A stretch of 64,000 nucleotides of DNA, from NCBI GenBank assembly GCA_028822845.1, contig JAPKCS010000005.1, forward strand, positions 1 to 64,000, written 5' to 3'. The notes beneath the pieces are model-generated. The model searched no databases. It saw only the letters and a list, made by a program, of their open reading frames with translations, and had not been told where the DNA came from. This document shows positions 1,644 to 15,014 of the stretch, one piece after another; position 1 is the stretch's first letter, and each line of letters starts with the position of its first letter. This stretch comes from Candidatus Poseidoniaceae archaeon (GTDB taxonomy: Archaea > Thermoplasmatota > Poseidoniia > Poseidoniales > Poseidoniaceae). The position numbers and the translations under genes are program-made.

Positions 1644-2081
1644 ATGAGTGAAATTTTGTATGAAGTGAAGATTGCAGATGCCTCGGGTCACACCGTCGCA
1701 CAAATGACCAAACCGGAGATTGTCGCCAAAGCGACTGCGTCCCCAGGAACATGGGTGTTCGTCAACGATCGCCTAGTTTCAGCCGCCGAACTCGAGCATA
1801 TGGAGCTCGATGCAGCGACTGAGTTCAAGCTGATGCCAGGCCTTGTCGGTGGCACAGACCAGATGTTCTCCGTTGAGATCGCTGACGCCAGCGGCCACAG
1901 CGTCGTTCAAATGACCCAAACAGAAATCGCCCAGAAAGCAAGCGAAAGCAACGCAGCATGGGTGTTTGTTGACAACACAATGGTTGCTGCCGACGACGTC
2001 GCAGCAATGGATTTCAGTGCAGTTCAGAAGATTCGCATGGTCCCGCCCCTTGTTGGCGGCATGGCCCAAGCGGAGCGCTGA
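1644..2081 (+). CDS. Tandem beta-grasp (ubiquitin/ThiS-like) two-repeat protein, each repeat ending LVGG
   Basis: Two about 70-aa repeats: YEVKIADASGHTVAQMTKPEIVAKA..TWVFVNDRLVSAAELEHMELDAATEFKLMPGLVGG and FSVEIADASGHSVVQMTQTEIAQKA..AWVFVDNTMVAADDVAAMDFSAVQKIRMVPPLVGG, then tail MAQAER. Confidence 0.75.
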   Translation: MSEILYEVKIADASGHTVAQMTKPEIVAKATASPGTWVFVNDRLVSAAELEHMELDAATEFKLMPGLVGGTDQMFSVEIADASGHSVVQMTQTEIAQKASESNAAWVFVDNTMVAADDVAAMDFSAVQKIRMVPPLVGGMAQAER

Positions 2082-3541: not shown

Positions 3542-3615
3542 GGGCGTGTAGCATAGCTGGATAATGCGTTGGCCTCCTAAGCCGAAGATCCCGGGTTCAA
3601 ATCCTGGCACGTCCG
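3542..3615 (+). tRNA. tRNA-Arg (CCT), CCA not encoded
   Basis: Acceptor GGGCGTG/CACGTCC, anticodon loop CTCCTAA, T arm GGTTCAAATCC. Confidence 0.92.
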
Positions 3616-3702
3616 CTCCCCTCTCTCGCAGCAGCATCGAAACTCGCGTTCGAGTCTCTTTTTGAAAGGCAAGAGCCAAATTCAACGACGGCCCGTCCGT
3701 GC

Positions 3703-5241: not shown

Positions 5242-5379
5242 GTTGCAAAACCATTGCCCACTCCCCAGTGACCTTTTTTTATTGCTGAACGACCCTTCAT
5301 CGTCAACTGCTGAGCAACCCGGCGAAGCGAGCACCTTATGGACAAGTCATGCTTGGGCAGGGTTACCGGTTGTGGGTTC

Positions 5380-7002
5380 ATGGAAGCATGGGACATCATA
5401 GTAGTAGGCGACGGACCAGCAGCACTTCGTGCGGCTGCAGCTGCTGCCAAGCAAGGGGCCTCAACGTTAATGATCGCAGTAAACGCTCTAGGCAGCGTCA
5501 CAGACGCTGGTCGAGACGGCCTCGCAGCACCAATCCAAGAATCCAACAACCGCGGTCATAGAGAAGATACAATCCGGAACGGTGCGTTCCTTTCGGATCA
5601 AGACATCGTGGCACAACGAACGGCAGACGCCATTCGCCAACTCGATCTTATGGAACGCTGGGGTGTCAACTTCCGACGCGACCCAACCGGTCTCCCCCAA
5701 GTTGCCAGAGCCATGGGCCATGGAAAGCCACGGGTTGCAGACGCAGGCGATGCAACAGGCCGAGAAATGCAAAAGACACTCGAAGAACAATGCATGCGCC
5801 ACGGCGTCGTTCGCCGCGGAGATCACCTTCCTCTTTCACTCATCCACTCGAACCACACCGTGCATGGTTTAACCGTCGCCGATATGATCAACGGAAGGAT
5901 CCTTTCAATTCAGGCAAAGGCCGTTATTTTGGCTGATGAAGGCTTTGAAGGCGTCATCAGCCATGGTGCCATCGGTCTTGGCATGGACCTTGCCCTTCGG
6001 GCAGGACTCTCGTTGCGAAACATGGAATTTATGAGTCATTCACCTCTTGGAGTAACGGACACCTCGATGGTGTTGTCAACTGGTCTCTTGAGCGCTGGTG
6101 CAACCCTCCACGACGCCAATGGCTCAGAACTGGACATTGGTGATGGGAGCGTCTCCTCTGTCTGCGCCGCAGTCGAAGGCGCAACACAAGCCGTTCTGGA
6201 TGCCCGCCACCTTGGCGATGCATCCTCATGGTGGTCTGGCGCCTTCCGCTTGGTCGCTCAACGCACCGGCATTGACATGTCAAAACAAACCATAGGCGTC
6301 GAAGTTCGACCAACCCTTTCGATTGGGGGCGTCGCTGTTGATGAACACGGTCGCGCTGTCAACGGTGTTTGGTCCCGATGGTTCACCGGTTTGTACGCTG
6401 CAGGCAATGCATCTTGCTCAGGCTTCCATGGCGCCATGGCTCTGCCAGGAAATCAACTCCTCGACGATCTTGGCGGCGGCAGTGCCGCAGGAGAACACGC
6501 TGGCGAATGGGTCCAAAACAGAAGCCATAGCGGCTCAGAAACATCGCTCGAAGAAGAAGCACGTGCGCAATCAGATTACAGTGCCATGAACGGCTTGGAT
6601 GCAGAAACCGTTGTTCGAGTAGGGTCGGTCGTGACCAAACTCCGCGAAGCTGCCAAAGAAGCACTTCTTGGCAAGCGAAACGCCCAGTCACTGACCAGCA
6701 GCATCGAATCTCTTGACGCGCTTAGCATCATGGCAGAAACCCTTCACCTCGATCAGTCTTCCTTGATTGCCAACACCAACCTCGTTGAAATCAGCCGCGT
6801 GCAAGCAGGCATCCGACTCGCCCTTGCAGCAGCACAATCAGCACTTGCTCGCGAAGAGAGCCGAGGCATGCACACCCGCAGCGATTTCCCAGAACAAGAT
6901 GAAGCGTTCTTGCACCACACACTGGTTGATCAAACCGGAAGCACATCCAGCCTTGGTTTGCGGAAGGGCAGCACAGGCAACTGGGTCCTTCCCCCACAAT
7001 GA
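5380..7002 (+). CDS. FAD-dependent flavoprotein of succinate dehydrogenase/fumarate reductase family (divergent)
   Basis: Rossmann DIIVVGDGPAALRAA; GLYAAGNASCSGFHGAMALPGNQLLDDLGGGSAAG. Confidence 0.75.
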   Translation: MEAWDIIVVGDGPAALRAAAAAAKQGASTLMIAVNALGSVTDAGRDGLAAPIQESNNRGHREDTIRNGAFLSDQDIVAQRTADAIRQLDLMERWGVNFRRDPTGLPQVARAMGHGKPRVADAGDATGREMQKTLEEQCMRHGVVRRGDHLPLSLIHSNHTVHGLTVADMINGRILSIQAKAVILADEGFEGVISHGAIGLGMDLALRAGLSLRNMEFMSHSPLGVTDTSMVLSTGLLSAGATLHDANGSELDIGDGSVSSVCAAVEGATQAVLDARHLGDASSWWSGAFRLVAQRTGIDMSKQTIGVEVRPTLSIGGVAVDEHGRAVNGVWSRWFTGLYAAGNASCSGFHGAMALPGNQLLDDLGGGSAAGEHAGEWVQNRSHSGSETSLEEEARAQSDYSAMNGLDAETVVRVGSVVTKLREAAKEALLGKRNAQSLTSSIESLDALSIMAETLHLDQSSLIANTNLVEISRVQAGIRLALAAAQSALAREESRGMHTRSDFPEQDEAFLHHTLVDQTGSTSSLGLRKGSTGNWVLPPQ

Positions 7003-9920: not shown

Positions 9921-12900
9921 ATGGGTCAAAAAATAAAGTCAATTAGCCTCGTATCAATCATGATGCTGTCAGTTCTGTCAACCTTGTTGATGGCAACCGT
10001 CACCGTCACTGCAAACACCGTCGTCATCACCGATGCCATCCAGGTCGTCGATGGTGGAACAGCCGCAGATCAACAAGCAGCTGTTTCTTCTGACAGCGAA
10101 GGAAACGTTCACGTGGTCTGGACTCGAAACAACCTCCACCTGTACTACTCCATGATTTCACCCCGTGGTGAAACACTCATTGACACAACCCAAATCACCA
10201 ACCCAGGACTTCACAAGATTTGGCATCCAGACATGGTTGTCGACGATCTCGACCGCCTTCACGTTGTATGGACTGACAAATCCAGCCAGCACAAGATTGT
10301 CTACACGGTGCTCAATCCATGGGCTACACCTATGGATGGCTCTGCAAGCGACGACGGTTCAATCAGTGCCATCGACGACCACGTCGTCTCCATGCGCTCC
10401 CAAAACCGCGACTGGCCAGCCATTGACCTCGACAGTCAAGGCAACGCCCACATCGTTTGGGAAGACTCCTATGACGAATTGTCCCGTTTCTTCAATCAAC
10501 CTCAAATCTACTACACCATGCTCCAACCCGATGCATCGACAGGATCTGTAGTGACTCTGTTTGATGACACCCTGTTGACCCCAATCATCGGCCACAAAGG
10601 CCACCCGGATGTTGTGGTCGATGCAAACGACTACGTCCAAATTGCGTGGGACGACACTCGCGGTGGAAAAGTCGAACTTGCTTTCATCGTTGACACCTCA
10701 GGTTCGATGTACTCCGAATGGGCCGACATCTGCACGGTCGTTTACGGCGGAAACTTTGCTTCTGGCGGTTACTTCCAAGGCATCAAACCAATGCTCGAAA
10801 CAGCAAACATGACCGTGTTTGAGACCATCTATGGACTCGGTACATCCCTCCCAGGCGCTGCAAGTTCCGGCAACTGCGCTGGATACAACCAAAACTCCGG
10901 TCCTCGAAACACAGCTCTTGGACAATTCGATGGTGACAACTCTGGTGGTATACGCACCCTCCCTGCAACCGTTTACAACGGCAACAGTTACTCTGGATTC
11001 TCCGGTGAAGACTGGGGCCCTGGATCGAACTGGGCTTGCCTTTCATGGAAGGATGCTTCCGGCTACGTCCCTGGAAATCCTCCAACTCAAGATGATCACA
11101 AGTGGAATCCAAACGCAACCAAGATCGTCATCCCTGTTTCCGATGAAGGACCAAAAGACGGCGACCCATCACAACAAGCCGATGACTTGACTTCAATCGA
11201 AGAAGCACACGACAACTGCCTCACTGCCGGTGTCATCCCTGTTGGATTGTACGGGCAAGGCTACGGTGGCGCTGGAAACATCCAATCTCACTTCATGGAT
11301 CTCGCTCAATGCCCGAACGGCGTTGTTTCAACTCAAACTCGCAACTGCCCAGGCAACACCCTCCGCTCTTCCGATGCTGGCGGTCAAGCCTACGAATTCC
11401 CATCCGGAAGCGGTGGCGCAAACGCAATGGCTCTCTTGGTCGAAGCGATGGTTTACATCTCAACCAACAACTCACGTGAGATCTACATGTCCGTCTTGGA
11501 CCCATACGGCAAGATGAACAACGATCCGACCTGGGTTCCTGGAGGCACTGGTCACTCCGTCATCCAAGGCGATTACTCAGAAGACACAGGACTTGGCTCC
11601 GAAGGCCACCTCGTCGTGGTCAACGACACCCGTGTCACCATTGATGACGCATACTCCTTCCACCCTGCAATCGGTGTTGACATGCAAGGCAACACCCACA
11701 TCGCCTGGATGGATGGACGCGATTACGGTTTCGAAAAGGCAGTCAACTACGAAGTCTACTACACCAAGCTGCGCTTGCAAGGTGCAGGTGTTTGGGACGG
11801 TGCAGATGAAGGTTTGTCCACCTACGCCATCAAGAAGATTCAAGACACGCCAATCTCCACAGTTGAAGGCCCTTCAGGGATCTCTGGAAACACCCCCTAT
11901 GGCGGGAATTCAGTGTTCCCAGCCCTCCTCACTGATGACCAAAACAACGTGCACATCGCATGGGTTGACTCTGGAAACACAACAGCGGGTGAAGAAGTCC
12001 TCTACACGCGCCTCAATTCAACCGATTTGACCGGGGAGGGCGAAGTCGCTTTGGATCCGTGGGAAATCGCAGCAATCACGACGTGGGCGAGCAACAAACT
12101 TGGTCCAAATGCAGGCAGTCAACCGAGCATCGGTATGCCACCCGCTTTCGCCAACGATCTTGGTAGCGGTGCACACGTCGCTTGGTCTGACACCAACAAG
12201 TGCAGCCAAGAAGCGAACAACAACCGGTTCACCATCTGTTACTCTCACGTTTTGACTGGACAAGTCGACGTTGAATTCCAAGACGGTGAAACCTTCTACC
12301 ACGTGATTGAACCAGGTGAACAAACCATCTACAACATGTCGATGAACAACTCCACGCCTGGTCCAAAGGACCTCGTAGCAGACACCTTTGGCCTCAACAT
12401 CTCCGGTGTACCTCAGAACTGGACAGCCACCTTGTTCTTCGCTGACAACCACACCTCAATCATGCCAGATACGCAAATCTTCCTTGAAGGTGGAGAAGAC
12501 ATCCGCTTCTACATCCGCGTTCGAGCCCCATCTGTCTATCAGGCAGATGGCGACCAACTCGCAGACATTCGAGTGACCGCTAAGTCTTACAAAGATCCAG
12601 CCATTCAGTCTGATTTGACCACGCGTACCCTGATGGACGTTGTCCACGGTATCAACCTCGATACGTCGCATAGCATGGCCGACATTGAGCAAGGTCAGAC
12701 GGCGATCTTCTCGATCACCATCACCAACACTGGAAACGTGTATGACCGGTTCATCTTCTGGGACCCTTACACCCTTGAAGGTCAACAAGAATGGTTGCTC
12801 CCATTCAACTGGGCTGTAAACTTCCCAATCAGCGTCGAACTCGACCCTGGTCAGTCGGTAACAAAGAACCTCGAGGTTCTCGTCCCGACATCTGAAGATC

Positions 12901-15014
12901 CGGGTGCGTTCGTGATTTACCTCAAAGGTTGGTCGGAAGGCGAACCGATCAAGTCGATTGAAAAAGGGACGTATGACGTCCTTGAACTGGGTATCTTCGT
13001 ATCCATCCGTTCCACAGGGAACATTGTGATGGAAATTTTCGATACCAGCGAATACGTTGACCCAGGTGAATGTGTGAGCTACCCGATTGATGTCACCAAG
13101 AACTTCGACTCCGGCAATCTTGTGTTCACCACTCCCGGTGCACCAGATATCAAGCCAGACACCATTTCTCTTGATGCATGGCGTCAGGACAACTGGGTTG
13201 TCAACATTGACTTCTCGAACGCTCCAGGCGGCAACAACATCGAACTGGACGCACCACGGGCCTGGAACATTCCTAACGGTGACGATTACGTCACCTACGA
13301 AGTTAGTGTAGAAGTGTGTGCACCAACCCTTGCATCAGCCGGTCTTGGACCTGCTGTTGTGTTGAAGGCGTACCTTGAAGGCTACCCGAGAATCTCTGCC
13401 TCAAAGATCCTCTCAACCAACGTCAACCACGTGTACTCTCTTGTAGCGGATGCTGACATCGATGACGACGACATGATGACCATTGGCGGACAAGATGTTG
13501 TTGCAGTCAACCCTGGCCAACAAATGTTCATTCCGACCACCGTTACCAACTACGGAAACGGTCCAGACCGCTATGATTTCCGCCTTGCTCGAGTCACAGA
13601 CCCTGCAGGCGTTGACGTCATTTGGGACATTGAAATCCCTCGTGAAAGTTTGACAGAGTTGTCCCGAGACACTGAACAATTGTTTGATATCGAAATCAAC
13701 GTGCCAGATCAGGTTGAAGCCGGTATTTACACCGTGGTCTTCCAAACCTTCTCTGAAGAAGCATATCCGGATGCCAGCGGTCGTTTGACCCGTCTGCGCT
13801 ACACTCAAGAGATCCCAATCTATGTGCAAGAGTTCTACGACATGAAAATCTCCATGGATGAAACTGTGGATAACGCAGTCAAGACTTCTGCTCCCGGCCG
13901 AATTGTTCGCTTTGAAGTGAACATCACCAACAACGGAAACGTCCCTGATTGGGCTCGCCTCGATAACCACACCTCGCAACGCGATGGTGAGGCACTGATT
14001 TGGTCCGAACTCCCAGGCATGGGTACATTGAGCGGCTGGAACGTTGAATGGCGCATGGTCAAGCAACTTGGTACCGACCTCACAACCGAAGAGTCGTGCC
14101 AAATCATCGAATCCGTTCCGACTGAAACTGGCAACGAAGATGCCATGCTCAACCCAGACGTTGTGTTTGCAGATGCCATTGACGACCAGTGCATCTACGT
14201 CACCTCCCTCGACAGTTACTACATGCCAAAGATGGCTCCATACACGACCCATCAGATGGTATCCATTGTGACCATTGCACCATCGGCGAAACTCGACACT
14301 CGAAGCCTCGGCCTCAAGGTTGTATCCAAGATGGGGAACATGAACGACGGCGGGGACCATGACGATTCACCTGCATGGGATGGCGATTCACTCGATTCAA
14401 ACGAGTTCATCCTCACCCTCCGCTTGCGAGCTCCAAACTTGGACATCACCGAAGTCAAGGCCTCGATCACTCAGGCTGCTGTTGGAGAAACCATTCCAAT
14501 CAAGGTCATCCTTGAGAACAATGGAAACACACATGCAACGGACATTGAAATCATCCTATGTGAGTACCCTAATGCACAGGATGCTGAAACAGAAGCCGAG
14601 ATCAAGAAGAACGGCTGTGACGAAGACCGCATCGTGATGCGTCAAGTGATTGGTGCTTTGCTTGCCCCAGATGCTTCTGAAGAATCGAAGTCGATTGAAT
14701 TGTACCTGCTCTACCCAGTGAGTGCAGGAAGCCACGGCATCTATGTCGTTGTTGATCCACTCAATGAAATCGTTGAAACCAGTGAGCGCGATAACGTGCA
14801 AGCTGTTTCGACCTCGTTGCAATCCGAAAATCCATTCATGGACGTCGCAGGTGAAGTGATCGGAAAGACCGCTTTGCCGTTTGCAGTGATTGTGCTTACA
14901 TTCGCCCTCCTTGGCGTTGTTTACCTGGTTGGTAAGGGCCGTCGAGATGATGTCAACAGGCGCTTGGCTGAACAATCATCCTTGATTTCCGTTCTCGGTA
15001 AGGACAACCTGTGA
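9921..15014 (+). CDS. Giant surface protein: signal peptide, beta-propeller blades interrupted by VWA domain, CARDB/NEW3-like Ig repeats, C-terminal TM anchor
   Basis: Blade motifs VHVVWT/IAWDD/IAWMDG; MIDAS DTSGSM; C-terminal FAVIVLTFALLGVVYLVGKGRRDD. Confidence 0.85.
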   Translation: MGQKIKSISLVSIMMLSVLSTLLMATVTVTANTVVITDAIQVVDGGTAADQQAAVSSDSEGNVHVVWTRNNLHLYYSMISPRGETLIDTTQITNPGLHKIWHPDMVVDDLDRLHVVWTDKSSQHKIVYTVLNPWATPMDGSASDDGSISAIDDHVVSMRSQNRDWPAIDLDSQGNAHIVWEDSYDELSRFFNQPQIYYTMLQPDASTGSVVTLFDDTLLTPIIGHKGHPDVVVDANDYVQIAWDDTRGGKVELAFIVDTSGSMYSEWADICTVVYGGNFASGGYFQGIKPMLETANMTVFETIYGLGTSLPGAASSGNCAGYNQNSGPRNTALGQFDGDNSGGIRTLPATVYNGNSYSGFSGEDWGPGSNWACLSWKDASGYVPGNPPTQDDHKWNPNATKIVIPVSDEGPKDGDPSQQADDLTSIEEAHDNCLTAGVIPVGLYGQGYGGAGNIQSHFMDLAQCPNGVVSTQTRNCPGNTLRSSDAGGQAYEFPSGSGGANAMALLVEAMVYISTNNSREIYMSVLDPYGKMNNDPTWVPGGTGHSVIQGDYSEDTGLGSEGHLVVVNDTRVTIDDAYSFHPAIGVDMQGNTHIAWMDGRDYGFEKAVNYEVYYTKLRLQGAGVWDGADEGLSTYAIKKIQDTPISTVEGPSGISGNTPYGGNSVFPALLTDDQNNVHIAWVDSGNTTAGEEVLYTRLNSTDLTGEGEVALDPWEIAAITTWASNKLGPNAGSQPSIGMPPAFANDLGSGAHVAWSDTNKCSQEANNNRFTICYSHVLTGQVDVEFQDGETFYHVIEPGEQTIYNMSMNNSTPGPKDLVADTFGLNISGVPQNWTATLFFADNHTSIMPDTQIFLEGGEDIRFYIRVRAPSVYQADGDQLADIRVTAKSYKDPAIQSDLTTRTLMDVVHGINLDTSHSMADIEQGQTAIFSITITNTGNVYDRFIFWDPYTLEGQQEWLLPFNWAVNFPISVELDPGQSVTKNLEVLVPTSEDPGAFVIYLKGWSEGEPIKSIEKGTYDVLELGIFVSIRSTGNIVMEIFDTSEYVDPGECVSYPIDVTKNFDSGNLVFTTPGAPDIKPDTISLDAWRQDNWVVNIDFSNAPGGNNIELDAPRAWNIPNGDDYVTYEVSVEVCAPTLASAGLGPAVVLKAYLEGYPRISASKILSTNVNHVYSLVADADIDDDDMMTIGGQDVVAVNPGQQMFIPTTVTNYGNGPDRYDFRLARVTDPAGVDVIWDIEIPRESLTELSRDTEQLFDIEINVPDQVEAGIYTVVFQTFSEEAYPDASGRLTRLRYTQEIPIYVQEFYDMKISMDETVDNAVKTSAPGRIVRFEVNITNNGNVPDWARLDNHTSQRDGEALIWSELPGMGTLSGWNVEWRMVKQLGTDLTTEESCQIIESVPTETGNEDAMLNPDVVFADAIDDQCIYVTSLDSYYMPKMAPYTTHQMVSIVTIAPSAKLDTRSLGLKVVSKMGNMNDGGDHDDSPAWDGDSLDSNEFILTLRLRAPNLDITEVKASITQAAVGETIPIKVILENNGNTHATDIEIILCEYPNAQDAETEAEIKKNGCDEDRIVMRQVIGALLAPDASEESKSIELYLLYPVSAGSHGIYVVVDPLNEIVETSERDNVQAVSTSLQSENPFMDVAGEVIGKTALPFAVIVLTFALLGVVYLVGKGRRDDVNRRLAEQSSLISVLGKDNL

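Follow-up and report, generated by a model that had tools for sequence, protein, structure and literature searches.

The window analysed here is a stretch of 64,000 nucleotides from a Candidatus Poseidoniaceae archaeon, whose assembly comprises 1.92 Mb and is 92% complete. An open reading frame on the forward strand, from the ATG at 1644 to the end of the stop codon at 2081, encodes a protein of 145 amino acids that contains no cysteine. From its translation, its orthologues and the AlphaFold and Foldseek results given below, it is annotated as a putative tandem ubiquitin-like modifier (Ubl) precursor with two beta-grasp units and a C-terminal cap. Unit 1 (1644 to 1853) ends in LMPGLVGG, with the glycines at residues 69-70. 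Unit 2 (1854 to 2060), whose limits follow from the unit alignment, the AlphaFold tandem and the residue positions, ends in MVPPLVGG, with the glycines at residues 138-139. The GG ends at residues 70 and 139 correspond to bases 1853 and 2060, and the second is followed by the six-residue cap MAQAER (2061 to 2078). The two units share 45% identity over 66 amino acids (BLASTP, E = 9e-23), with LVGG aligned to LVGG.

A putative TATA-like promoter element lies at approximately 1598 to 1610 and a Shine-Dalgarno-like GAGGAG at 1631 to 1636, both on the forward strand. In most orthologues, a TTTATA/TTCATATAC element is found about 40 nt upstream of the start, and GAGG or AGGTG is conserved about 8 nt upstream of it. 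The reading frame with its two homologous units, the GLVGG and PLVGG ends of which the first is internal, the MAQAER cap and both upstream signals had been proposed in a preliminary description of this DNA, and all of them held on closer analysis. No Pfam or NCBIfam family was assigned to the protein. A match to PF14186 (E = 5e-4) was set aside, as it was under the cut-off of that model and spanned part of one unit.

The Ubl gene adjoins genes that resemble, by the look of their sequences, those for RNA polymerase subunit P and a clamp-loader subunit, and the region is flanked by tRNA-Asp(GTC) at 461 to 535 and tRNA-Arg(CCT) at 3542 to 3616. Positions 1 to 392 hold a minus-strand gene that starts near 392 and has a Pro/Gly/Ser-rich tandem repeat at its C-terminal end; in other genera, relatives of this gene are found close to the Ubl locus (loci L091 and L092). 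Further along the window, the open reading frame at 9921 to 15014 encodes 1697 amino acids. Its N-terminus is signal-like, one stretch is possibly VWA-like and a transmembrane segment lies at the C-terminus; the product has the look of a large surface protein.

Each unit is predicted by AlphaFold to have the order beta-beta-alpha-beta-beta-(short helix)-beta, which is the ubiquitin-like order. The pLDDT was 91.7 for unit 1 (58 aligned units) and 77 for the tandem (24 family members). In Foldseek searches, the best PDB match of the tandem was ISG15 (E = 5.5e-6); OASL was matched too, through its tandem ubiquitin-like domain. A single unit matched mostly ubiquitin-like proteins, including MoaD, ThiS, SAMP1, SUMO and Urm1, none of them below E = 0.01. 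In profile comparison, the unit met ubiquitin with its GG in register with Gly75-Gly76, at single-domain E values of about 0.2 to 1.8, which are not significant. The values of E = 1e-15 to 1e-16 obtained against engineered polyubiquitins were discounted, since weak repeats are summed in such matches. The beta-grasp fold suggested in the preliminary description is in agreement with both structure-based methods.

Orthologues of the Ubl gene were present in 88 of the 196 genomes searched, including the window genome. Because the frame is kept in these genomes, it is not a chance open reading frame. When 395 genomes of the phylum were searched with a profile, matches were confined to genomes of the same order, in which many members lack the system. 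The family of which the gene is a member is found in Poseidoniales (Marine Group II) and has one to four units per gene; among 102 distinct genes, 34 had one unit, 51 had two, 16 had three and one had four.

The last unit ended in glycine in all 102 distinct genes, as GG in 85 and as AG in 17, and in the units read the internal GG (or AG) was no less conserved than the terminal one. The conservation of GG across orthologues, on which the preliminary description depended, was found for the terminal glycine, which is invariant; the preceding position changes in one subclade of the window genus, where LQAG or LLAG replaces LVGG. In this subclade (L020-L023, L026, L028, L029, L039 and L068-L070), both units end in LQAG or LLAG and the E1 and JAMM genes described below are kept in most genomes, which provides a natural test of the change from GG to AG. 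Residues past the last glycine (1 to 19, and exactly one in 46 genes) were carried by all 95 short-tailed distinct genes, none of which stops at the final glycine. Such universal extra residues look as expected of a precursor that needs a peptidase.

Homogenisation of units within a gene was detected in 5 of 25 dereplicated genes, with identities of up to 100%, compared with 45% in the window gene; in some lineages, the units inside one gene were more alike than the units of different genes. The divergence to 45% in the window genus could mean that the units have distinct roles rather than simply supplying copies. Other arrangements were also seen. Two genomes of the same genus, G025 (contigs C6, C17 and C20) and G035 (C28 and C43), have two Ubl loci each, a three-unit Ubl gene standing alone and a separate operon of cysteine-motif protein, Ubl, E1 and JAMM genes; a second E1-JAMM-orfX set was also read in G025. 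At L042/L213 (G066, C109), a single Ubl unit carries a fused C-terminal domain some 290 amino acids long, with E1 and JAMM genes following.

The preliminary description reported no E1 or JAB-like partner in the window. This is correct for the window but not for the genome, in which both are encoded on contig C53; they went unseen because they lie outside the window. The window genome has two E1/ThiF proteins. One is a compact, single-domain E1-like enzyme of 218 amino acids (C53:4153-4809; PF00899, E = 4e-18), and the other is a MoeB-type protein of 387 amino acids with a rhodanese-like tail. The PF00899 match and the nucleotide-site residues of the compact enzyme place it in the E1/ThiF superfamily. 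Its invariant residues are G18, G20, G21 and G23 of the GxGGxG motif, the ATP-site residues D47, N55, K70 and D111, and C160, which sits in an SCQ motif. The best PDB match of its profile was MccB (E = 3.5e-13). Uba1 and UBA6 came within some two orders of magnitude of this value and ThiF and Uba4 within four orders, and MoeB was also matched. The scores against models of specific families were 26.2 bits for UbaA (cut-off 450), 52.9 bits for PRTRC_ThiF (cut-off 144.75) and 18 bits for BilD (PADLOC).

Overlapping the E1 stop codon is the start of a gene (C53:4806-5363) for a protein of 185 amino acids, which is assigned to the JAMM/MPN+ metalloprotease family by the pattern E-x(n)-H-x-H-x7-S-x2-D; its motif HTHPGFDAYWSGTD reads H-x-H-x7-S-x2-D. 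The five motif residues (E, H, H, S and D) are conserved in 51 of 51 homologues. All 21 PDB matches of the JAMM profile were JAMM deubiquitinases, the best being the Caldiarchaeum Rpn11 (E = 0.005); taken singly, these matches are weak. A second protein with a JAMM motif (HTHPNAPAIPSGAD; 252 amino acids) is encoded outside the operon of the window genome, on C20 (L073, 1186-1944), and might have a role in the MoaD/ThiS pathway or act on conjugates.

Two more genes follow on C53 in the same direction. The first, orfX (5360-5599), overlaps the JAMM stop codon and encodes a small conserved, helical-looking protein of about 79 amino acids with no family match. The second (5609-6559) encodes a protein of 316 amino acids that has a cysteine motif at its N-terminus and a conserved domain, I.V.G.SG..Y.I ... 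CI ... P.GD ... VLAL.ND, in which the Cys is invariant. This cysteine-motif family has about three members per genome, one of them in the Ubl operon; the window genome has further members at L230 (1317-3707, C27) and L231 (1062-1829, C33). The operon protein is a possible transfer factor or substrate. The ICID of its domain resembles the E2 motif ICLD, and it was considered as a hidden E2. The similarity to E2 was not significant: hhalign gave a probability of 1.4%, and only one of 18 members matched UQ_con, at E = 0.16. A degenerate SWIM-like domain is an equally loose idea. No E2-like protein was found with PF00179 in five Poseidoniales genomes, and no RING E3 or CEHH-type E2 was recognised. 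Beside several of the Ubl operons (L088, L081, L086, L087, L080 and L078) stands a gene for a protein with an N-terminal zinc-ribbon-like motif, possibly a TFB.

Relatives in both families of the order encode the Ubl beside its partners, in the arrangement cysteine-motif protein, Ubl, E1, JAMM and often orfX, mostly in one direction, and single-unit forms share an operon with E1 and JAMM in the same way. The JAMM is usually a separate gene and is fused behind the E1 in some genomes of the second family. Four genomes of two genera encode Ubl-Ubl-E1 fusions. The neighbourhood of the fusion locus, with GDP-mannose dehydratase-like and glycosyltransferase-like genes, is also that of the stand-alone E1 of the window genome, so that the simplest view of the unlinked modifier and E1 in the window genome is that of a pair that has been split.

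E1-like enzymes were found in 83 of the 88 genomes that carry the Ubl gene, and the JAMM in 82. The co-occurrence of Ubl and E1 was significant overall (P = 1e-33; 196 genomes, mostly incomplete MAGs, with phylogeny partly controlled) as well as within the genus (P = 3.5e-6), in the rest of the family (P = 5e-13) and in the second family (P = 1.5e-11), and it holds even where the two genes are unlinked. The phage and plasmid records searched gave zero matches, indicating no sign of a mobile or viral origin in those records. A defence-island reading was rejected as well, as PADLOC returned generic E1 similarity only and the neighbours look like genes of glycosylation, transcription and replication.

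The nearest known kind of system is the bacterial polyUbl or Multi_ubiq operon (PF14452; row 6e of Iyer et al. 2006, PMC1779556), which encodes beta-grasp units of about 70 amino acids in tandem (one to three), an E1-like enzyme, a JAB domain and a Zn-finger protein of possible treble-clef type. Tandem units, E1 and JAB are common to both, whereas the Poseidoniales system is archaeal and its JAMM is usually a separate gene rather than the N-terminus of the E1. PF14452 did not match the units at E up to 5, nor did it match in 60 relatives; the latter is a weak test, as the control genomes gave no match either. An RWD or E2-like domain as in polyUbl operons was not found in the Poseidoniales system with PF00179 in five genomes. 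The Bil system (BilABCD) is alike in having an E1 and a two-domain Ubl whose C-terminus is exposed by a JAMM peptidase (PMC11354881). It differs in that BilD has paired inactive and active adenylation domains, compared with the single 218-amino-acid domain here, in its CEHH-type E2, which has no recognised counterpart here, and in unit number, which is one to four here.

Like the SAMP system (SAMP1-3, UbaA and HvJAMM1), the Poseidoniales system is archaeal and combines Ubl, E1 and JAMM with no recognised E2 or E3, but its E1 falls under the UbaA cut-off and the window genome also has its own MoeB-type E1 and MoaD. SAMP units are single, with no tandem. The ubiquitin operon of Caldiarchaeum and Asgard archaea (CsUb, E1, E2, RING and CsRpn11) shares residues after the GG of the Ubl precursor, but CsUb is a single unit, and the E2 and RING of that operon are not recognised here. 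Eukaryotic polyubiquitin also has head-to-tail units in variable copy number, residues past the last glycine and units homogenised in some lineages. Here, in contrast, sequence similarity to ubiquitin is marginal, the units of the window genus have diverged, no E2 or E3 is recognised here, and processing is predicted to be by JAMM, not by USP or UCH enzymes. The E1 aligns to the ThiF of PRTRC systems (ThiF, Ubl, E2 and JAB) at 53 bits, under the cut-off, and PRTRC neighbours were not recognised. The ThiS model PF02597 did not match the window units and matched one of 29 units at E = 0.016. As judged by these sequence models, the system falls outside all the families tested (Multi_ubiq, Bil, PRTRC, SAMP and ThiS/MoaD).

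The family has the features of a ubiquitin-like modifier, namely an invariant terminal glycine and a cognate E1 and peptidase in the same genomes, and those of a polyubiquitin-type precursor, namely head-to-tail units, variable unit number and residues after the last GG. We consider it probable that the gene encodes a polyubiquitin-like precursor of a reversibly conjugated modifier, with a JAMM of its own for cleavage behind every GG and an E1 of its own for activation. The two-unit, peptidase-dependent precursor of the preliminary description is in this respect supported by the predicted fold, the variation in unit number, the universal cap and the co-inherited E1 and JAMM. The gene product would be a head-to-tail multimer, and cuts by the JAMM behind each GG may release single modifiers and take off the cap, by analogy with the archaeal CsRpn11, which cuts its ubiquitin precursor CsUb precisely after the GG (PMC6043591). 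The same peptidase would probably also strip the modifier from its targets. The E1 is predicted to adenylate the exposed glycine and probably to hold the modifier as a thioester on C160. The modifier might then pass to target lysines in the absence of a recognisable E2, straight from the E1 or assisted by the operon cysteine-motif protein. The trypsin remnant computed for such lysines is LMPGLVGG (+724.39 Da) or MVPPLVGG (+750.41 Da), not GG.

The preliminary description had also offered a sulfur carrier and an unprocessed scaffold as alternatives, both of which we judge less likely than a modifier precursor. As a sulfur carrier, the processed units would be adenylated by the E1 and converted to thiocarboxylates, and the sulfur would be given to a metabolite or tRNA as by ThiS, MoaD and TtuB. 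The window genome, however, already has a separate MoaD/ThiS protein and the MoeB-type E1 with the rhodanese-like tail, and in the loci read no gene recognisable as one for a rhodanese, a cysteine desulfurase or a sulfur pathway recurs next to the operon. A multimeric precursor is also more expected of a modifier that is consumed than of a carrier that is recycled. We therefore hold sulfur transfer to be unlikely, even though the E1 sequence resembles ThiF and MoeB, the unit fold matches MoaD and ThiS, and some prokaryotic E1-JAMM-Ubl sets also serve sulfur transfer.

An uncut di-domain acting as a scaffold or noncovalent binder, with the E1 and JAMM acting on another partner or only on the C-terminus of the intact tandem, is improbable too. 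In the units read, the internal GG or AG is conserved to the same degree as the terminal GG or AG, genes vary freely between one and four units, and the occurrence of single-unit forms in the same operon with E1 and JAMM indicates that a single unit is sufficient. The tandem does match ISG15 and OASL, and ISG15 is conjugated as an intact two-domain protein. The divergence of the window-genus units to 45% identity favours a scaffold as well, and with such divergence the intact tandem may have an additional role, like that of ISG15. A C-terminal cap would fit equally, and in BilA, which has two domains, a peptidase exposes the C-terminus before activation (PMC11354881). Far less credible is a chemistry in which the substrate of an MccB-like E1 is a peptide or small molecule, with the Ubl as its carrier or leader. 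MccB was the top PDB match of the E1 profile, but Uba1 and UBA6, and then ThiF and Uba4, came close behind it, and biosynthetic neighbours were not recognised. To our knowledge, MccB loci do not typically conserve a JAMM peptidase along with a folded beta-grasp partner.

The modifier-precursor reading can be extended to a self-contained conjugation system that Marine Group II evolved independently, with a true polyubiquitin-type precursor, a single-domain E1 and a JAMM for processing, in which the cysteine-motif domain with its invariant Cys would be an unrecognised E2- or E3-like transfer factor and orfX a new small helical protein. We put this forward tentatively, as a possibility with the balance against it. 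The operon of E1, JAMM, orfX and cysteine-motif protein also gives two uncharacterised families a likely role.

The Poseidoniales system is real and has largely been reconstructed, and it is an archaeal variant of ubiquitin-like systems that has apparently not been described. A literature search whose reach ended before preprints and most subscription papers gave no report of this kind of system from Poseidoniales or Marine Group II. UCH and RING genes, a different gene set, have been reported from a marine group II single-cell genome (PMC4327156). Tandem forms are known from bacterial operons, and a description of a polyubiquitin-style precursor in euryarchaeal plankton was not found. Such precursors are a hallmark of eukaryotes, and Marine Group II are among the most abundant archaea of the surface ocean. 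If confirmed, the system would indicate that a minimal E1, in the absence of a recognisable E2, can serve a multimeric modifier that is processed by a JAMM, and how conjugation proceeds without an E2 could be tested directly with four or five small proteins.
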